Source: Coriobacteriia bacterium (GTDB lineage Bacteria > Actinomycetota > Coriobacteriia > Anaerosomatales > Anaerosomataceae). Taken from it: 64,000 bases of DNA. The DNA lies in the NCBI GenBank assembly GCA_016938135.1, contig JAFGVD010000014.1:1-64000 (forward strand), written 5' to 3'. This document shows, piece after piece, positions 4,016-15,135 of this stretch. The notes under the pieces are model-generated. The model was not told where the DNA came from, did not search any database, and was given only the letters and a program-made list of their open reading frames with translations. Each line of letters opens with the position of its first letter. Positions within the stretch are counted from its first letter, which is position 1. The position numbers and the translations under genes are program-made.

Positions 4016-4963
4016 ATGAGCGAATTCCTGAGGTGTGTGGAGGGCATCGACACTGCGGCCACCCATGCCGTCCGCATCGATACGCTCATGGTCAACATCG
4101 GACTGCGCTGCAACATGGCGTGCGCCCACTGTCACCAGTCCAGTTCGCCCACCCGCACCGAGGCCATGTCCGCCGGGGACATAGGGACCGTGGCACGGAT
4201 AGCGGCAGATATCCGACCGCGGCTAGTGGACATCACCGGTGGCGCGCCTGAGCTGCATCCGGGTCTGCGCAGGCTGATCGGATCGCTGACCGAGGCGGGT
4301 GTGCCCACGCAGATCCGCACCAACCTGACAGCGCTTCTGGAGCCGGAGGCCGAAGGACTCATCGACTTCCTCGCCACCAACCGGGTGCGAGTGCTTGCGT
4401 CGCTCTCGGGCGTCTCGGCCAACGAACCCTCGGTGCGGCAAGGCGATGTCTTCGAGCGATGTGTCACCGTCCTCAGGCAGTTGCTGGATGCGGGCTACGG
4501 CTCCACACCGGGACTCCGACTCGATATAGCGGTCAATCCGGTCGGCGTCTCATTGCCTGACCCGGCACAGCTTGAGAAGCGCTTCCGGGCAGAGCTCGAG
4601 GGCGACCTGGGCATCCCGTTCGAAGAGCTCATCGCGATCACCAACGTCCCCATCGGGCGGATGCGGGAAAAGCTCACCCGCTCCGGAGAGCTTGGCTCCT
4701 ACCGCCAGTCGCTGCGGCTTGCGTTCAACCCGCGCACCGTGGACCTGCTCGCCTGCCGTTACTCGCTGGAGATCGCCTGGGACGGGACGCTGTCTGACTG
4801 CGACTTCAACCTTGGTGCCGGCCTGCGCGTCGCACCGGGAGTCCCCGCGCACATCTCGGAGTTCGATCTGGATGCGCTTGCCACGCGTCCCATCCGTTTC
4901 GCGGATCACTGCTTCGCCTGCACCGCCGACGCCGGATCCGGTTGACACGGTTCGCTGCTGTGA
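4016..4963 (+). CDS. arsS: ArsS-type radical SAM selenoprotein (Sec310, UGA at 4943-4945)
   Basis: A radical SAM enzyme of the ArsS (rSAM/selenodomain, TIGR04167-like) family, associated with arsenosugar-type biosynthesis. The cluster motif is CNMACAHC near residue 33. The C-terminal part has CRYSLEIAWDGTLSDCDFN and the closing HCFACTADAGSG. Family members usually continue with a Cys or Sec and a short tail such as GGAL. Here codon 310 is TGA, followed in frame by HGSLL and a second TGA at 4961-4963. That second stop overlaps the next gene's GTG start by 4 bases (GTGA), the normal coupled arrangement. A SECIS-like hairpin lies at 4959-4978. I therefore read the first TGA as selenocysteine, giving 315 residues. 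If it were a true stop, the protein would end at residue 309 without its redox residue. Confidence 0.85.
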
Positions 4964-4978
4964 CCCGGTCGGGTGACA
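4959..4978 (+). promoter_or_regulatory. SECIS-like hairpin for arsS
   Basis: The arms TGTGACCC (4959-4966) and GGGTGACA (4971-4978) pair with one G-G mismatch and close on a GGTC loop. The loop begins 22 bases after the UGA, inside the range of bacterial SECIS elements, and its GGU resembles known SelB-binding loops. The hairpin also covers the start codon of the next gene. Confidence 0.6.
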
Positions 4979-6354
4979 CCCCTCCCCGCTTGATCGTGAT
5001 GACGCGCTACCCCGTTCCCGGGCGCGCGAAGACCCGTCTCTCTCCCGTCTTGGGCGATGTGGGCGCTGCAAAGCTCTCAAGCGACCTCTCCCTGCACTGC
5101 ATCAGGCGCATGCATGCGGCGGCAGCGTCCGGTGAGATCGAGCTGGAGGTGCGCTACACCGGAGCGAACGCCGCGCAGATGCGCGAGTGGGTCTCTCGGC
5201 TTGTACGCATACGGCAGCAGGCAGAGGGCGACCTGGGCGAGCGGCTCGCCGACGCGATGCGGGACGCTTTTGCCGAGAAGGCACCGGCCGCTGTCGCCGT
5301 GGGCTCGGACGCTCCCGGCCTGGGCGGAACGCACGTCCGCGCCGCGCTCGAAGCGCTTGCGGAAAGCGATGTCGTCTTCGGCCCGGCCACCGACGGCGGC
5401 TACTACCTGGTGGGCGTGCGGTCGTCAGCCGCTGAGCGCGCGCTCCCCGCGCTGTTCGCTTCGGGCGTCGGGTGGGGCACCTCGACGGTGCTGGAAGCGA
5501 GTCTTGCAGCTCTGAAGCGGGCGAGCCTCACGTCAGCGTTGCTCGAGCCGCTCGCGGACGTCGACCGTCCCGAAGACCTCCAGGTCTGGGAGCATGTCGT
5601 CTCGGCGGATGAGAATACCCGAACCTCGCCCGCTGTGTCGGTCGTGATACCGGCGCTCAACGAGGAGGAGCTGGTCGCTGACGCGGTGAGCAGCGCCCTG
5701 GCGGCAGGTGCACTGGAGGTGATCGTGGCCGATGGCGGAAGCAGGGACGAGACGGCGCAACGGGCAGCCGGTGCAGGAGCGAAGGTCTTGCACGCCCCAC
5801 GGGGCAGAACCTCGCAACTCAACGCAGGCGCGCGGCACGCGACCGGCGATGTGCTGCTATTCCTGCACGCCGACTCCCGGCTGCCCCAAGACGGCATGCA
5901 GCACGTCAAACGGGTCCTGCACGACCCGGCGGTCGCCTTAGGCGCGTTCCGCTTCGAGGTCGGCGACCAAAACCGCTCTCAAGACCGTCTGATCACGCTC
6001 GTGGGACGGATGCGCCACAAGATCTTCCACCTTCCCTACGGCGACCAGGCGCCCTTCCTCAGACGACGCGACTTCGAAGACCTGGGCGGCTTTGCCATGA
6101 TGCCCGTCATGGAGGACTACGATCTCGCCCTGCGCTGCAAGCGGCTTGGTCGGCTAGGCTCCGCGTCCGTCTCGGCGCCCGGCTCCTCTCGCGCATGGCG
6201 CGAGCACGGGCTTGTGCGTGTGACGCTCACCTACATGGCGATGATCGCCGGCTACCGCCTGGGAGTCCCGATCAGCCGTCTCGCCGCCTTGCACGCGCGG
6301 CTGTCATCCAAAGACAGGGTATCTACTCACCAAAGCAGTAACGCGCGTGACTGA
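4960..6354 (+). CDS. fused selenodomain-associated sugar transferases 1 and 2
   Basis: A 464-residue fusion from a GTG that overlaps the extended arsS stop. Residues about 1-205 resemble the TIGR04282/DUF2064 nucleotidyl/glycosyl-transferase family (MTRYPVPGRAKTRL, then GSDAPGL and GPATDGGYYLVG). Residues about 215-450 are a GT2-type transferase like TIGR04283 (VVIPALNEEE, VADGGSRDET, RTSQLNAGARHATGD, FLHADSRLP, MEDYDLALRC). These two families usually sit next to ArsS as separate or fused genes, which supports a joint pathway for a modified sugar or organoarsenic/seleno-metabolite (known association; product here is inference). A short 7-base tandem repeat (TGACGAC) follows the stop. Confidence 0.85.
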   Translation: MTRSGDTPPRLIVMTRYPVPGRAKTRLSPVLGDVGAAKLSSDLSLHCIRRMHAAAASGEIELEVRYTGANAAQMREWVSRLVRIRQQAEGDLGERLADAMRDAFAEKAPAAVAVGSDAPGLGGTHVRAALEALAESDVVFGPATDGGYYLVGVRSSAAERALPALFASGVGWGTSTVLEASLAALKRASLTSALLEPLADVDRPEDLQVWEHVVSADENTRTSPAVSVVIPALNEEELVADAVSSALAAGALEVIVADGGSRDETAQRAAGAGAKVLHAPRGRTSQLNAGARHATGDVLLFLHADSRLPQDGMQHVKRVLHDPAVALGAFRFEVGDQNRSQDRLITLVGRMRHKIFHLPYGDQAPFLRRRDFEDLGGFAMMPVMEDYDLALRCKRLGRLGSASVSAPGSSRAWREHGLVRVTLTYMAMIAGYRLGVPISRLAALHARLSSKDRVSTHQSSNARD

Positions 6355-6384: not shown

Positions 6385-6852
6385 ATGGCCGAGAAGCTCC
6401 CCATCCCTGAAGTAGGATCGCCCGCCCCCGGCATCAAGGCGTCGACCACAGGCGGTGGCGAGTTCGACCTTGCAGCTCATCGTGGCGAGTGGGTGGTCGT
6501 CTACTTCTATCCTCGCGCGAACACCCCCGGTTGAACGCACGAAGCAAAGGACTTCCAGGCGCATCGTGCAGAACTGGAAGCCCTCAACGCCCTTGTAGTG
6601 GGCGTCAGCGCCGATAAGCCCGAGGTGCAGCAGCGCTTCATCGACAAGTTCGAACTGACCTTCCCGATGATCTCAGACGCCGACAAGAGCATCATCACCG
6701 CATACGGCGCCCGCGAGGTCCTGGGTGTCTCGGCAAAGCGCTCCACATTCCTCATAGACCCGCAGGGCCTGATCGCGCATGTCTGGCCCCGGGTCAAGCT
6801 CGCCGGGCACGCCGATGATGTGCTCGACGTCATCCGAACGCACGCAGGCTAA
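6385..6852 (+). CDS. bcp: BCP-type peroxiredoxin selenoprotein (Sec50, UGA at 6532-6534)
   Basis: A 155-residue peroxiredoxin of the Bcp/PrxQ family, which reduces hydroperoxides with thioredoxin-like partners. The active-site stretch reads VVVYFYPRANTPG, then TGA, then THEAKDFQ; the usual family motif has Cys at exactly the TGA position (YPxxxTPGCTxEA). The frame continues cleanly through GVSADKPEVQQRF and STFLIDPQGLIAHVW to a TAA. A SECIS-like hairpin begins 17 bases after the TGA. The nearby resolving Cys of PrxQ (5 residues on) is Lys here, so this would be a one-Sec enzyme. A nonsense mutation of TGC is the alternative, but the hairpin and the selenoprotein ArsS next door argue for Sec. 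GAGAGGA precedes the ATG. Confidence 0.85.
6552..6580 (+). promoter_or_regulatory. SECIS-like hairpin for the peroxiredoxin
   Basis: The perfect 7-bp stem CTTCCAG (6552-6558) / CTGGAAG (6574-6580) encloses an upper stem GCA-TCG-TGC (6561-6569). The apical loop is about 30 bases after the UGA and contains a G, as expected of bacterial SECIS elements. Confidence 0.6.
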
Positions 6853-7726: not shown

Positions 7727-7766
7727 GCCACAGCGCCGGGGTGACTGCAGCACCCTGGCTTGCCCG

Positions 7767-7788
7767 ATCATACCCCATTGGGTATGAT
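7767..7788. promoter_or_regulatory. operator ATCATACCC-N4-GGGTATGAT upstream of the permease pair
   Basis: A perfect inverted repeat with 9-base arms and a 4-base spacer (CATT), centred about 45 bases before the permease GTG. The core ATACCC-N4-GGGTAT recurs at 9966-9981 before the BASS transporter. The CCC/GGG palindrome resembles operators of CsoR/CstR-type repressors (inference). No such regulator gene is in the window. Confidence 0.7.
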
Positions 7789-7822
7789 TGGCGACTACGC
7801 TCAGAACTCGCGAAGGAGACAC

Positions 7823-8305
7823 GTGGACCTAACAGGAATCGTCTATCTCGCGGGGGTCGGCATCGCGTATGCCGTCTTCTGGCGTAGGTCCCCGGAGCGC
7901 AGCAAAAAGGCCCTCTCGGCCGGAACCAGTTCATTCAAGGGCATGCTGCCCACGTTCATCGCCGTCTTCGGACTCGTGGGCCTGTTCGACGTCTTCATCC
8001 CACCGGCGCTGATCGAGCGCTGGATGGGTTCGTCATCAGGCGCGTTGTCACTGCTGGTGGGCACGGGCCTTGGCACGGTAGCAGCCGGACCGCCCGCCGC
8101 GGCGTACCCTATCGCCGCTACGCTTCTGAAAAACGGTGCCTGGGCACCGGCTGTGGCCGCCTTCATCGTGTCGTGGATACTGGTGGGCTTCATCTCGCTG
8201 CCGATGGAATCGAAGATCTTCGGCGCCCGCTTTGCCATTCTGCGCAACGGCCTGTCCATGATCGCCGCCGCTGTCATCGGACTCCTGATGGGAGTGGTGC
8301 TGTAA
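7823..8305 (+). CDS. permease half, DUF318/YraQ (ArsP-like) family, subunit 1
   Basis: A 160-residue membrane protein. The GTG start at 7823 is chosen because AAGGAG lies 4 bases upstream; an earlier in-frame ATG at 7760 would put the operator inside the gene. The loop GTGLGTVAAGPPAAAYPIAATLL is the PP-containing motif of the PF03773 permease family. It is half the size of a normal permease; the second half is the next gene, whose ATG overlaps this TAA by one base. The pair probably forms one transporter, with a possible metal(loid) or sulfur-species substrate suggested by the shared operator. Confidence 0.8.
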   Translation: MDLTGIVYLAGVGIAYAVFWRRSPERSKKALSAGTSSFKGMLPTFIAVFGLVGLFDVFIPPALIERWMGSSSGALSLLVGTGLGTVAAGPPAAAYPIAATLLKNGAWAPAVAAFIVSWILVGFISLPMESKIFGARFAILRNGLSMIAAAVIGLLMGVVL

Positions 8306-8871
8306 TGGCCTCCTCTCCCGCACCCATAAAGCACTCGCTTGCCGAAACGCTCAAACCGTACCGACTGGTCTTCGCCGTCGCTGCGCTCTACGCCGTGGCG
8401 GCCTTCTCCTCCCCCGCACAGGCATACGAGGCCGCATCCGTAGCTGTAAAGACGTTCGCCGGTGTCGCACCCATCGTCATTGCGGTGTTCGCGGCGCTCG
8501 GTCTTATGCAGGTCTTCGTAGACAAGCAAGCCATGGCACGCCACCTTGGCGAACGCGCGGGTCTGCCCGCGCTACTGCTGGCCGCCGCCGCTGGAACCAT
8601 CCTCGTGGGACCGGTGTTCGTCATCTTCCCGCTGCTCAAGTCGATGCGCGACCACGGAACGAGCTTGTCTATCATCACCACCACGCTGACGGCGTGGGCC
8701 GTCAAGCTCACCATGGTACCGCTTGAGGCGGGATTCCTCGGCTGGAAGTTCTCTATTGCGCGGATGGTGCTCACCCTGTCAGCCGCCGTCGTGATGGGCC
8801 CGCTGATGGGCCGCCTGATGCGTAACGAATCCAGGGCTGATATATGCAAGACCGAACCGAAAGTCGCCTAG
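8305..8871 (+). CDS. permease half, DUF318/YraQ family, subunit 2
   Basis: A 188-residue membrane protein translated in a TAATG overlap with the first half. Its internal loop AAAGTILVGPVFVIFPLLKSM mirrors the GTVAAGPPAAAYPIAATL loop of subunit 1, the duplicated repeat expected of PF03773 permeases. About five membrane segments are seen. The stop lies in a short perfect palindrome (8863-8876, GTCGCCTAGGCGAC) that may aid termination between this gene and the convergent transporter. Confidence 0.8.
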   Translation: MASSPAPIKHSLAETLKPYRLVFAVAALYAVAAFSSPAQAYEAASVAVKTFAGVAPIVIAVFAALGLMQVFVDKQAMARHLGERAGLPALLLAAAAGTILVGPVFVIFPLLKSMRDHGTSLSIITTTLTAWAVKLTMVPLEAGFLGWKFSIARMVLTLSAAVVMGPLMGRLMRNESRADICKTEPKVA

Positions 8872-8909: not shown

Positions 8910-9926
8910 TTAGGCCGTTACTCTAGCGACTGAGACAAGTGCCTTCTCGGCAGGTTCACCAAACACACGCGGCGTCGCCTTCACGTACCATGCAGCGCTC
9001 TGCACCTGCACGATGTAAGCAGCCGCCAACACGAGCGCAGCTTCGGCACCGAACTGCGCGACAGCGATACCCAACGCGATGGAGAGGTTACGCATGACGG
9101 TGCCATACACCACGGCTATCGCATCGCCGCGCGGCAGAAACCGCTTGCCGATGACCGTGGACAACGCAAAGTTGGCTGTGTAGAAGATGACCAGCGGAAC
9201 GAGCACGATGATCACAAGCTGCGGGTTTGTGAAGATCATCCGCGCTTTGAGGCCTATAGCCACGAAGACGATGGCGAGCACCCCGACAGTGGACAAGCCC
9301 GGAAACACAGGTGCGATGCGCTGCTTGTACTCGGCCTGGCCGTATCGGCGCACAAGGACCTTGCGGGTGATGACGCCCGCAACCATGGGGACTGCAACAA
9401 CAAGCACGACCGTCTGCAAGACGCCCATGAAGTCGACCGGGACAACCTTGCCTGCAAGGACCGAAAGATAGACGGGCGCCAGCAACGAGGCCGCTATCAA
9501 TCCGATCACAGTCATCTTGACCGCAGCGCCCACGTTCCCTCGTGCAAAGCCTGTCCACGAGATCGTCATCCCACTCGTGGGGAAGAGACCCGCCAGCACC
9601 ATTCCCACATACAGTCCGGGCTGGTCACGGAAGAACAGCATCGCCAGTCCCCATGCCAGCACCGGGAGCACCAAGAAGTCCAGAACCATCGCCACGCCCA
9701 CCGCGCGCGAGTCCTTGAGGTCAAGCGCCTCGGCAGGACGAAAATTCACAAGCATGGGGTAGACCATGAGCATCGTCATGGGAAGAATGAGCGCCTTGAA
9801 CGGCGTCATGTCCACCACAAGCCCCGCACCAAGACCAAGCCCCATGGATATAGGGATCAGCACCACCAGGTGTTTGGTCAAACGAGACAGGATCTTCACG
9901 GCAGGGTTCACGGTCTGCTCGGACAT
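8910..9926 (-). CDS. BASS/ACR3-like transporter
   Basis: A 338-residue protein with about ten membrane segments, of the bile acid:Na+ symporter / arsenical resistance-3 superfamily (SBF fold). The stretches MVLAGLFPTSGMTISWTGFARGNVGAAVKM and VVYGTVMRNLSIALGIAVAQF match the two crossover regions. The conserved ACR3 cysteine in the fourth helix is not seen, so arsenite export is not assured. The start at 9926 is preceded by GGAG. An operator identical in design to that of the permease pair lies about 40 bases upstream, so the two units should respond to the same signal. Confidence 0.82.
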   Translation of the reverse strand: MSEQTVNPAVKILSRLTKHLVVLIPISMGLGLGAGLVVDMTPFKALILPMTMLMVYPMLVNFRPAEALDLKDSRAVGVAMVLDFLVLPVLAWGLAMLFFRDQPGLYVGMVLAGLFPTSGMTISWTGFARGNVGAAVKMTVIGLIAASLLAPVYLSVLAGKVVPVDFMGVLQTVVLVVAVPMVAGVITRKVLVRRYGQAEYKQRIAPVFPGLSTVGVLAIVFVAIGLKARMIFTNPQLVIIVLVPLVIFYTANFALSTVIGKRFLPRGDAIAVVYGTVMRNLSIALGIAVAQFGAEAALVLAAAYIVQVQSAAWYVKATPRVFGEPAEKALVSVARVTA

Positions 9927-9964
9927 TGGCTTCTCCAATCCAACATGGGAAGAACGCAAGCCAA

Positions 9965-9982
9965 TATACCCCCTTGGGTATA
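9965..9982. promoter_or_regulatory. operator TATACCC-N4-GGGTATA upstream of the BASS transporter
   Basis: A perfect inverted repeat with 7-base arms and the spacer CCTT. It shares the ATACCC-N4-GGGTAT core with the site at 7767-7788. Confidence 0.7.
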
Positions 9983-10047
9983 CCAAAGGCAAATAGAAAG
10001 CCCCCACTTGGGCACTGGGATTCCATGAAAAAGCAGGGCGGTGCGTA

Positions 10048-10774: not shown

Positions 10775-13700
10775 CTAAGGCTGCCACATCACGATGCCGG
10801 GATTAATGTGTCGCGAGTTGTTCATGCTGTGACACAGCGCGTCGCAGTCGCCGTTCTGCCAGCCGGAGCCCGTGGGTCCGTGAGGTTCGGCCGTGAACCG
10901 GTCGAGTTCGCCGTCCCACACCCAACTGGAGGTGGGATCGAGCTTGTGGCTTGTGCTGCGAGTGTATGGGGAGATGTTGGCGGCCGACAGTTCGTCCTGG
11001 CGAAGCAGACGCGGCAGTTTCCAGCCATGCGGCACAGCGACATGGCATGAAGAACAGGTGAAGTAGCCATGCCGATAGAAGGTGTGCACTGTGTTGGAAG
11101 CCTTGTTGTGGCACCGGCCGCACAGGAACTCGGTGTCCCACTCGTCCAGCGTCGTCTGATACCAGCGTTTGTACGTGCCGGAGTAACTGTCGTAGACGCC
11201 GTCTGCGACCAGCCCGAAGGGCTTATCTGAGCCGTGCGGGCCCACCGCGCCACCGACGTCGGATGTGTGACAGTCCGTGCACGTAAGCTGGCTGTTCTTC
11301 GTGAGCCCTGTTCCCGCCCGGAACGCCTGGGCGTCGGAGGGGAACGGCCAGCTAAAGGCGAGCCCGTCCGCGGGACCCTCTTTGGGCCAGCTCGCGCGTG
11401 AGCCCACGATGTTGTGCCCGCTCTGGTTTGCAGGATTGAACTCGATCGACAGGTTCGTCGCGTAGTAAGAGAACGTGGCACTGCTCCCCAGTGTGGGATC
11501 CGCCGGTGTAGTGAATCGCAGGTTCATCGAGCTCATGGCGTGGCAGCGCAGGCAGACGTATGCCTCATAGCCGCCATCCCCGATCGTCCGCGTGTTCTCG
11601 TAGCTCGTGGCGGCGGTCCAGTTTCCGCTGCCCCATACCGGCGAGACACCTGCGGCGCCCTGCAGAGCCGGCCCGGCTTCGCTCTCGCCAAGCGTGTGAG
11701 TGCCGGCCTGGGCGACGTGGGGGTCATGGCAGTCCGCGCACTCGATGTGACGCGACGTTTGCGTCAGTGTCGTCTCTCGGCTACTGTGCCTGCCGATGAA
11801 GTCACCCACACTGTGACCGCGCGTGAGAGCAAGACTCGTCGCGATATCCGGTGCACCGGAAGCCTGGACGCCGAGCGTCCCATTGCCGTGGCACTGCAAG
11901 CACAGGTTGGATCCGGTCGCCGCCGAGCTGCTGTTGTCGCGCTCGCCCGCAACACCTGCCGAGAAGCCCGCAGGTCGCGTCCACGCCAGAAGGCTGCGGT
12001 TATCAGACCCGTGCGGATCATGGCAGGTCTCACACAGCGCCCGCGTTCCCGAAGTCGTCGCGTGTGCCGAGGATGCGTACGCCGCTCCGGTGACGGACTT
12101 GTCCCAGCCCGCGAACGCCGGATAGCCGGACGCGTCGCTGAACGAGACATCATAGGGGACGAAGGCCGCAGCCGTGGCGGTCGCTACAGGGGCGGTGCCG
12201 TCGTGGCACGTCAGACAGAACGACGTTGTGGTCCCGGTGAAGCTCGAGCGCGTGTCGTCGGGGTCAGCCACCCGCGAGACGTCCCAGACGCCACTGCCCT
12301 TCTCGGCCAGGTGTGTGTTGTGGCAGTTGACGCACGTGAGCGAACCGCCGGCGGTAAAGGACTCGTACTCCGAGGTAACGCTCACGGAATAGACAGACGG
12401 CGTAGAGTTGTGGAGCGTGGAGTACAGGTGCACCCGTACTCGAAACTCGTCGTAGGCATGCACGTCCAGATCACGCAGGTTCACCGGCGCACTCGCGTCC
12501 GTGTAGCCGGGGACGTCCACCCACACCCCGTCGGATGACCCCTGTAAGTCAAGACGAACATAGGAGTCCGCCCCTACCTCGCCGGTCCAGTTCAGTTCAC
12601 CCAGACGGTACACACTGGCAGCGGGAGTGAACGCGGGTGTGAGGACCGTACCGTGACCAACGTACCCGGATCCCGTATAAGGACCGGGATCCGTCCAGGC
12701 AAACGCCATGGAGGTGCCCACAGGCATCGAGTTCGAGTCGTTGTAGTAGCCCCATTCGTTCCAGAATCGATGCGTGGCGGCATCTGCAACGGGGTCGGCA
12801 GGTATGGTCCGCCAGGACAGGTCCGGACGTCCGCCGCCCTGTATCGCGTAGATAGTGCTGTTGCCGTCCCACTCCAGGGCACCGCCGTCATCCAGCTGAT
12901 AGTAGCCCCAGGTGAACGGGAACCCGGGCGCCTCGCTCAACGCAGGCGTTCCAGCCAACCCGCTGACAAGCTGCGTGCGGCCTGCGTTGGCGGCACTCGT
13001 GCCCACGATGTAGATGTAATCGACGCCGCTCACCGTGACACGCGCCATCCGGTTGTGGCGCACCGTGGTGGTCGAGAGTGTGACTTGCAGGCCCGTCGAG
13101 GTGAAGTCAGTCAGGCCGGAGGCCGTCGACGGCGAGTCGAGATAGTACACCATGCCGTCGCCGCTCGTGCCGTCGCGGTTCACAACGAACAGCCGGTCAG
13201 CCTGGGGCGAATACGCGATCGTTGAGCCGATGCCGAGCCCCGTTTCAACACCGCCGATCGCAAAGCGGATGCCCGCAGTCCAGGTATCGGTGTCATACTC
13301 CCACTTCATGATGTACGAGCTTCCTTCGCCCGCCGAGTAGAACGCGACACCATGTGCGGTATCCGCATCGCTGTCTGCGCCGGTGCCGATGGCGACGGGC
13401 GTTGCGGACGCCGTCGTGAGGACACCGTCGCCGCTATTCGCAGGAGGAGTATAGGACCAACGGGTCGTCGTGCCCACGCCGCCCGATTCGCCCCGGGTGA
13501 TGTAGATGACGTCACCGATCTCCAGGCTCGTGGAACCTGATCCCGGTTCCAGCGTGTCCGGTGGGTCGAAGCCCTTGCTATCGATGTTGCCCTGGTCGAA
13601 CGAGTGGTACCCCGCTCCATTGAAGTTGACGTTCATGCCGTTGATGAAGCCCAGATTGAGCGGCTCGTAGTCACGCAGCACCGAGGAGCTATACCTGAGC

Positions 13701-15007
13701 GCCATGTAATCCGGATAACCCGAGTATTCGTCCCCCGGCCAGGTCAAGACATCGGTCAGTGTCGCAGTCGCGAACTCCGCAAGCGACCCTATCGAGAACT
13801 CTGTCTGCGACTTTGCCGCGTACCCCCCGCCCGTGGACAGGTACGGGTGGCTTGAAGTGCTTGTGAACTCACTCCACACGTCACGGTCGTTCCAGGTGTA
13901 CGGCTTCCCGTCGCCGCGGTCGGCCTCCACACCCTTAAAAGCCTGCGCCGAGTGGCACTTGAAGCACAGGCCGCTCTCGGCGTTGCCCGTGTCCGTCGTC
14001 CCGCTTCCGCGATAGTCCACCAGCCCCGCGACCGGCGACGCATGCTCGGCGTGACACACCTGGCATTGCGTGGCGGCTCCATCGGTCACTGGCACCTCGG
14101 TAGGATTATGCGCCGAGGCAAGATAGCCGCTTTCGTGGTCGCCGGCGGTGGCGTCATAGGCGTCCGCACCGCCCATCTCGGCCATAAGCGTGTCGTCAGC
14201 GCCATGACATCCCAGGCAGAAGTCGTTCTCCAGCGGGGCCTGCTGCGTGCTGAACAACCACGCCGAAGGCATCCCGGTCCGCAGCAGGTCGGGATAACCG
14301 ACTTCGGGCAAGACCGCGAACGGTCGGCGATGCGGGGTGTGGCATGCGGTGCATTCCCGCTCCGTGGAGACCATATGGCCGTTGCGATGCGTCGATCCGC
14401 CGGAGGGTAGAGGGGTCGCGGTCTCGTCGTAGAAGCCCGCCTGGACGTCGCTCGATGCAGCGATGCCGTAGCTGCGGGTCGTCTCGGTCATCCCGTGACA
14501 TGCGTAGCAGGCCTGGGCGCCGCTGGCCCCAAGCGAAGCTCTGCCGGTGGGCTCGTCATGCAGGTCGTGGCACACCTGACACGAGCGAACGTTGTCTGCC
14601 CGAGCGGCGCCGTGCGGATTCGGCGTCACGTTCTGGGAGATGTCCGTCTGCGTATCAGCCGTCCAGACCACGACGTAGTAGTACTGGAACTTGGCTTCAG
14701 TCTCGCCGGTAGCGGGCTCCACCACCACCGATCTGGTACCGGCCGGCGTGGACGTGACCAAAGTGGACGCGCTCACGTCGTCCAGCGCAAGAGGCGCGGC
14801 CGACCGATGGATCTCGTAGCCGTCAGGCTCCACACCGTCGTAGCTCCAGGTCACGCGGACCTCTGAGCCACTGTTGACGGCCGCAGTGACATCTTGCAGC
14901 CCTGCTTGAAAGGAGCCGGGCGGTGAGATTGCGGCGACCGACGAGACCATCATGAGAAGCCCCACCGTGGCAAGCAGGATGGGGTACGTTGAGTGGCGTT
15001 CACGCAT
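10775..15007 (-). CDS. giant multihaem c-type cytochrome
   Basis: About 1,410 residues, exported by a signal peptide (YPILLATVGLLMMVSSVAA). A fibronectin-III-like domain follows (about residues 40-130, ending YYYVVVWTADTQT). There are 15 CXXCH haem-binding motifs and one C-xxx-CH (CDALCH) near the C-terminus. The first six are in roughly residues 140-360 and the rest beyond about residue 890. The 500-residue haem-free middle looks beta-rich (SSSYIMKWEYDTD-type blades). This design fits extracellular electron transfer or a surface redox relay in a Gram-positive anaerobe. The start at ATG 15007 is uncertain; a TTG at 15025 is possible. Neither has a clear ribosome-binding site. Confidence 0.9.
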   Translation of the reverse strand: MRERHSTYPILLATVGLLMMVSSVAAISPPGSFQAGLQDVTAAVNSGSEVRVTWSYDGVEPDGYEIHRSAAPLALDDVSASTLVTSTPAGTRSVVVEPATGETEAKFQYYYVVVWTADTQTDISQNVTPNPHGAARADNVRSCQVCHDLHDEPTGRASLGASGAQACYACHGMTETTRSYGIAASSDVQAGFYDETATPLPSGGSTHRNGHMVSTERECTACHTPHRRPFAVLPEVGYPDLLRTGMPSAWLFSTQQAPLENDFCLGCHGADDTLMAEMGGADAYDATAGDHESGYLASAHNPTEVPVTDGAATQCQVCHAEHASPVAGLVDYRGSGTTDTGNAESGLCFKCHSAQAFKGVEADRGDGKPYTWNDRDVWSEFTSTSSHPYLSTGGGYAAKSQTEFSIGSLAEFATATLTDVLTWPGDEYSGYPDYMALRYSSSVLRDYEPLNLGFINGMNVNFNGAGYHSFDQGNIDSKGFDPPDTLEPGSGSTSLEIGDVIYITRGESGGVGTTTRWSYTPPANSGDGVLTTASATPVAIGTGADSDADTAHGVAFYSAGEGSSYIMKWEYDTDTWTAGIRFAIGGVETGLGIGSTIAYSPQADRLFVVNRDGTSGDGMVYYLDSPSTASGLTDFTSTGLQVTLSTTTVRHNRMARVTVSGVDYIYIVGTSAANAGRTQLVSGLAGTPALSEAPGFPFTWGYYQLDDGGALEWDGNSTIYAIQGGGRPDLSWRTIPADPVADAATHRFWNEWGYYNDSNSMPVGTSMAFAWTDPGPYTGSGYVGHGTVLTPAFTPAASVYRLGELNWTGEVGADSYVRLDLQGSSDGVWVDVPGYTDASAPVNLRDLDVHAYDEFRVRVHLYSTLHNSTPSVYSVSVTSEYESFTAGGSLTCVNCHNTHLAEKGSGVWDVSRVADPDDTRSSFTGTTTSFCLTCHDGTAPVATATAAAFVPYDVSFSDASGYPAFAGWDKSVTGAAYASSAHATTSGTRALCETCHDPHGSDNRSLLAWTRPAGFSAGVAGERDNSSSAATGSNLCLQCHGNGTLGVQASGAPDIATSLALTRGHSVGDFIGRHSSRETTLTQTSRHIECADCHDPHVAQAGTHTLGESEAGPALQGAAGVSPVWGSGNWTAATSYENTRTIGDGGYEAYVCLRCHAMSSMNLRFTTPADPTLGSSATFSYYATNLSIEFNPANQSGHNIVGSRASWPKEGPADGLAFSWPFPSDAQAFRAGTGLTKNSQLTCTDCHTSDVGGAVGPHGSDKPFGLVADGVYDSYSGTYKRWYQTTLDEWDTEFLCGRCHNKASNTVHTFYRHGYFTCSSCHVAVPHGWKLPRLLRQDELSAANISPYTRSTSHKLDPTSSWVWDGELDRFTAEPHGPTGSGWQNGDCDALCHSMNNSRHINPGIVMWQP

Positions 15008-15135
15008 TGATTTCACAGTCTGCAAGTAAGCCGCCCGACCGGTGCGGTCACAGCGGATGCATCACTCAACTTCAGTGTTCTTCAGCATCCTGCAGCCATG
15101 ATAGCATTCGTTATCCCCCGAACAAATAGCACCCG

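Follow-up and report, generated by a model that had tools for sequence, protein, structure and literature searches.

The SECIS of E. coli fdhF carries a small apical GGUC loop, and ahead of selAB in the same species lies a SECIS-like element, attributed to Thanbichler and Boeck in 2002, that reportedly binds SelB and represses translation. In the bSECIS model, the apical loop has 3-9 nt with a G in its first two bases, the upper stem has 4-16 bp, the UGA-to-loop distance is 16-37 nt and the minimum free energy is at most -7.5 kcal/mol (PMC13188914). Two reviews (PMC13188914, PMC9312934) include the ArsS family TIGR04167 among predicted selenoprotein families; the later of them (PMC13188914) makes the prediction with high confidence, places selenocysteine (Sec) in a GxxU motif and gives AAR34688.1, with its reference 13. 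Adenosylation of dimethylarsenite by ArsS is credited to Cheng et al. 2021 in a passage of PMC12159101. Sec-containing ArsS is therefore already known by prediction, and the locus described here is a well-supported addition in a lineage for which our literature search found no report of a seleno-ArsS; the same search found ArsS as a selenoprotein only in family tables, and no account of a SECIS linked to the start of a following gene.

Results

An ArsS-family gene with an in-frame UGA

The analysed window is a stretch of 64,000 nucleotides from a Coriobacteriia bacterium. The features that concern us are as follows.

4016-4963, forward strand: arsS-like radical SAM gene, probably encoding a selenoprotein (PF04055, PF12345, TIGR04167); 315 residues with UGA 4943-4945 read as Sec, 309 with it read as stop
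4943-4945, forward strand: proposed selenocysteine codon UGA, codon 310; Cys aligned in 74/80 relatives, UGA in 20 loci of the order
4946-4960, forward strand: five codons HGSLL after the UGA; codon-position entropies 0.81/0.45/1.34
4959-4978, forward strand: putative bacterial SECIS hairpin; 4-bp upper stem, loop GGUC at 4967-4970, UGA-to-loop distance 21 bases, -9.2 kcal/mol
4961-4963, forward strand: UGA stop of the extended frame, in the 5' arm of the putative SECIS; UGA in 20/20 loci of the order
4960-6354, forward strand: two-domain arsenosugar-type transferase/glycosyltransferase, TIGR04282 and TIGR04283 fused; GTG start inside the putative SECIS
6385-6852, forward strand: peroxiredoxin (PF00578, E 2e-35), second probable selenoprotein gene, in-frame UGA 6532-6534 (TPGUTHE)

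The arsS-like frame starts at ATG 4016 and, as we read the sequence, is closed by TGA 4943-4945 (codon 310) after HCFACTADAGSG; reading through adds HGSLL before a second TGA at 4961-4963. The first-pass annotation had located both the stop and the extension correctly and had ended the gene at 4978, which is the end of the hairpin, the extended frame itself ending at 4963. Radical_SAM (PF04055) spans residues 26-162 and DUF3641 (PF12345) residues 181-313, both above the Pfam gathering scores. The sole strong NCBIfam match is TIGR04167, at 294.8 bits (294.7 in one run; E 6.6e-88; Cys put for Sec) against a curated equivalog cut-off of 300 bits, which the protein does not reach; truncated at the UGA it scores 286.1 bits, rising to 294.7 with readthrough. 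Relatives score 303.4 (L021, the nearest), 298.3 (L022), 296.7 (L028) and 265.3 bits (L030), and together with the window protein they form a divergent clade that straddles the cut-off (265-303 bits against 300). For this reason, we file the window protein as a predicted member of the ArsS family and not among the proven ArsS equivalogs. Its nearest named relatives are Coriobacteriia MAGs, one of them called Anaerosomatales. Across 38 sequences, the CxxxCxxC cysteines of the radical SAM domain (C32, C36 and C39) are invariant; the C-terminal HCxxC...Gxx[C/U] motif, present as HCFACTADAGSGU, has C299, C302 and G307 invariant and position 310 conserved at more than 90%.

Conservation of codon 310 and of the codons behind it

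We retrieved 80 loci from many phyla by tblastn in named genomes and read the aligned codons by script and by eye; Cys stands at codon 310 in 74 and UGA in six, namely Nitrospirae L093, Desulfomonile L114 and four Coriobacteriia/Actinobacteria MAGs, apparently further entries for genomes that our search of the order had returned. Within the window's order, UGA is found in 20 loci (window included) and Cys in four (L040-L043), and in the wider class beyond it UGA is found in L196 and L198 and Cys in L194, L197 and L201. The earlier claim that ArsS homologues carry Cys or Sec at this place was thus borne out as Cys (74/80) or UGA, and looking for homologues that end at the first TGA with neither residue, a suggested route to refuting the selenoprotein reading, failed to refute it. 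Where ordinary ArsS has its C-terminal Cys, the window protein would have Sec310. One ArsS relative in the order, L044 (genome G031, which has selA), carries TAG before the Cys/Sec position and represents either a natural loss of that residue or a degraded gene.

Among the relatives, entropies at codon positions 1, 2 and 3 are 0.81, 0.45 and 1.34 for the five codons after the UGA and 0.59, 0.67 and 1.50 for the codons before it. Behind the UGA, GGN, a small residue and CTN are preserved while third bases vary, a pattern that selection on a translated peptide would give.

A conserved and covarying hairpin

The GGUC-loop hairpin that had been proposed to begin 14 bases past the UGA is indeed present at 4959-4978, as UGU-G-ACCC-[GGUC]-GGGU-G-ACA with one G.G mismatch and -9.2 kcal/mol. 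With a 4-nt loop opening in GG, a 4-bp stem and 21 nt between UGA and loop, it lies within all four constraints of the bSECIS model. Folding of the single sequence gives no significant signal: when the stretch is shuffled, 26% of the resulting sequences satisfy the bSECIS rule and 14% reach a fold as good as that of the window, and the z-score is only -1.2. The hairpin is thus weak evidence in one sequence, and it becomes convincing through conservation and covariation across relatives. It stands at the same place in all 20 UGA-bearing loci of the order, where (C)CGGUC sits 18-19 bases past the UGA (16 in L036, which is missing one codon). The pair 4964-4973 is C-G in 18 of these loci, G-C in L023 and U-A in L036, and the two inner stem pairs are never broken; the next A-U pair outward is broken in 7/20, its A being fixed because it is part of the stop codon UGA. 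In other families of the class, GGCGUA-GGUC-UACGCC (L198) and GGCCUA-GGU-UAGGCC (L196) follow a UGA at the same residue, so that, relative to the window, the loop is kept and the stem replaced with its pairing intact. Moreover, L036 and L033 retain the hairpin though no transferase frame follows, and the coding of the next protein therefore does not explain it. The interpretation of the GGUC hairpin as a SECIS is supported, and our conviction rests on this conservation and covariation.

Sec machinery and further probable selenoprotein genes

A search of the genome for selA, selB, selC and selD, which the first-pass annotation had recommended, found all four: selD, selA, selB and tRNA-Sec lie in one cluster (C49:42754-47608), all above curated cut-offs, so that this search too failed to refute Sec. 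Over the order, selA is present in 16 of the 20 genomes with Sec-ArsS. No selA was seen in G025, G001 or G057, but each has a selD with UGA, and G025 and G057 have partial selB matches at contig ends; G039 (65% complete, Sec-ArsS) has no selA, selB or selD over the cut-offs. The sel genes missing from these four genomes are likely due to incomplete assemblies. G029 (99% complete), whose ArsS has Cys, has no selA and only a weak, sub-cut-off selD-like match. Because 54 of the 69 genomes have selA, the association between Sec-ArsS and selA over the order is weak as a statistic.

The selD of the cluster (L010, C49:42754-43671) is itself a selenoprotein gene with an in-frame UGA, and its hairpin recurs in many relatives of the order (L134-L163) as GGUCC-GGA-GGACC, with a two-sided pair change in L135 (AGUCC-GUC-GGACU). 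In the peroxiredoxin gene, UGA 6532-6534 falls at the peroxidatic position; 34 genomes of the order have a relative, with one in-frame TGA in each of the matches listed, and under the strict bSECIS rule no hairpin qualifies after UGA 6532-6534. Of the loci read, 20/20 for ArsS, 29/29 for selD and 24/25 for peroxiredoxin (L164-L193) have a U directly ahead of the Sec UGA (GGU, AGU or UCU), against a third-position T background of about 8-10%; in the window it lies at 4942 (ArsS) and 6531 (peroxiredoxin). It is also present in L196 and L198 and absent in L093 and L114, and the Cys homologues L040-L043 have C at the base preceding codon 310. We take this U as a probable Sec-codon context preference of the lineage.

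The overlapping transferase gene and its neighbours

The product of 4960-6354 scores 183.5 bits with TIGR04282 (cut-off 134) and 203.2 bits with TIGR04283 (cut-off 182). Its GTG (4960-4962) overlaps the second TGA by four bases as GTGA (4960-4963), as previously noted. This geometry had been put forward as independent support for readthrough. It is consistent with readthrough, GTGA occurring in 18/20 loci, but is not decisive on its own, because UUGA at 4942-4945 offers the same overlap at the first UGA, providing a TTG in frame with the downstream gene, and makes the argument from a single sequence ambiguous; no stop interrupts that frame in the window, and all 20 loci of the order retain UUGA. 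TTG 4942 as the only transferase start was rejected, since TAG breaks the TTG frame in relative L024. The transferase frame begins at the GTG of the hairpin in 18/20 loci, mostly as VTRSG. Among these 18, the Shine-Dalgarno is strong in L030 (-11.5), intermediate in L025 and L026 (-6.5) and between -2.2 and -5.2 in the others, a weakness at most GTGs that would fit reinitiation by ribosomes ending at the second UGA. As the transferase mostly lacks a Shine-Dalgarno and a terminating ribosome would lie on the GTG, the arsS-like gene and the transferase are probably translated in a coupled way. In a single element the locus combines its putative SECIS with the terminating UGA and the transferase start, which is its less usual feature.

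Close downstream, 7760-8871 and 8910-10007 encode two half-size ArsP_1-like permeases and an ACR3/SBF-like transporter, which may be arsenic or metal export genes in the same neighbourhood as the arsS-like gene. A large multihaem cytochrome c of 1416 residues with 15 CxxCH motifs lies at 10775-15025 on the reverse strand.

Predicted structure and chemistry

The predicted structure has a pLDDT of 93, with residues 312-315 below 50 and the last ten residues unreliable; since the Sec310 tail is unreliably modelled, we make no claim on its distance to an iron-sulfur cluster. A fold search with this model retrieved the SPASM/twitch-type radical SAM enzymes SkfB, SuiB and EpeE, and C247, C262, C299 and C302 are invariant in the 38 sequences, which together suggest an auxiliary cluster at these four cysteines. 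Sec310 might hold the arsenical or a cluster iron. No arsenite methyltransferase (ArsM) over the NF008823 cut-off was found in the genome, and the arsenosugar role of the window enzyme is therefore uncertain.

Discussion

Codon 310, a UGA, very probably specifies selenocysteine. This is supported by its alignment with Cys, the 20 loci of the order with a hairpin, the codon periodicity, the pair changes, the Sec machinery and the score rise with readthrough, as well as by two other Sec genes (selD and peroxiredoxin) and by a Cys-ArsS genome, G029, without selA. The explanation as a whole, in which the arsS-like gene would make a selenium-containing ArsS-family radical SAM enzyme with SelB- and hairpin-directed Sec310, is to our minds close to certain from comparative sequence evidence. 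Weighing against it are the non-significant fold of the window's hairpin by itself, a family score slightly short of the equivalog cut-off, the sel genes missing from G039, G025, G001 and G057 and, for the arsenosugar role, the absence of an ArsM match over the cut-off. Just past UGA 4943-4945, SelB and Sec-tRNA-Sec would bind the hairpin with the GGUC loop, selenocysteine would be put in as residue 310, and the ribosome would add HGSLL and stop at the second UGA, which presumably escapes recoding by lying too close to the hairpin loop. The terminating ribosome would then rest on the GTG that starts the fused glycosyltransferase. Going by what is known of the family, the enzyme would attach a 5'-deoxyadenosyl group to its putative substrate, a methylated arsenical, and the transferase would act later in arsenosugar formation.

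It is very improbable that UGA 4943-4945 is an ordinary stop, giving a 309-residue protein that has lost its C-terminal Cys and a transferase that starts at TTG 4942 through the TTGA overlap. The open TTG frame in the window and the UUGA kept in every locus of the order would suit such an arrangement, but variation in the five following codons tracks codon position as read in the ArsS frame, TAG cuts the TTG frame in L024, the UGA aligns with Cys, and the hairpin persists with compensatory changes even in loci that lack a transferase frame behind it. As a rule, a U precedes the Sec UGA in selD and peroxiredoxin as well, although neither has a next gene starting there. Slightly less probable still is that the conserved hairpin is no SECIS but serves the transferase start, with its VTRSG N-terminus, in coding or regulation. 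The 18 loci that start the transferase at the GTG inside the hairpin, mostly with VTRSG, would be explained in this way, but not the hairpins of L036 and L033, which have no downstream transferase frame, nor those of L198 and L196, where the same loop tops a different stem and no transferase frame is seen directly behind; the spacing and loop, moreover, fit the bSECIS model. A sequencing error or recent nonsense mutation needs only one base to turn UGC or UGU into UGA, but is refuted by the relatives, which have the same UGA in 20 genomes within the order as well as in other families and phyla, and we give it practically no credence.

With codon 310 read as Sec, the fused element becomes a candidate for selenium-gated coupling. 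Under this scheme, Sec-tRNA would carry ribosomes to the second UGA, and reinitiation at GTG 4960 would match glycosyltransferase output to that of ArsS; if selenium were lacking, ribosomes would stop 18 bases earlier, and either both products would fall or the transferase would be made from the TTG. We regard this as speculative and rather unlikely. If the coupling were true, selenium supply would set the expression of a whole organoarsenic operon. What deserves further work here is the compact SECIS/stop/start element. The locus adds a seleno-ArsS clade in Anaerosomatales-type Coriobacteriia, mostly just under the family cut-off, whose members automatic annotation would probably truncate. 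It also provides a natural pair of UGAs 18 bases apart, one a proposed Sec codon and one a stop. Nearly every relative in the order retains this pair, which is useful for studying how the position of SelB determines the choice of codon.

Compared with known systems, the window protein resembles the TIGR04167/rSAM_SeCys ArsS in its Radical SAM and DUF3641 domains, its CxxxCxxC, the HCxxC near its C-terminus and the proposed Sec in GxxU (GSGU), and differs in that its clade lies around or under the cut-off, its Sec would stand six residues from the end and its putative SECIS extends across the stop codon and over the downstream gene's start. The hairpin, with its small GGUC apical loop directly downstream of the UGA, is like the E. 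coli fdhF type, but lies mostly outside the frame it would serve and is common to the start of the next gene. By analogy with the E. coli selAB element, it is a putative SelB-binding hairpin beside a start codon, which, unlike that element, would also serve Sec insertion in the upstream gene. The transferase matches the TIGR04282 and TIGR04283 arsenosugar glycosyltransferases, with both domains above cut-off and adjoining ArsS, whereas these separate families are here fused in one protein.
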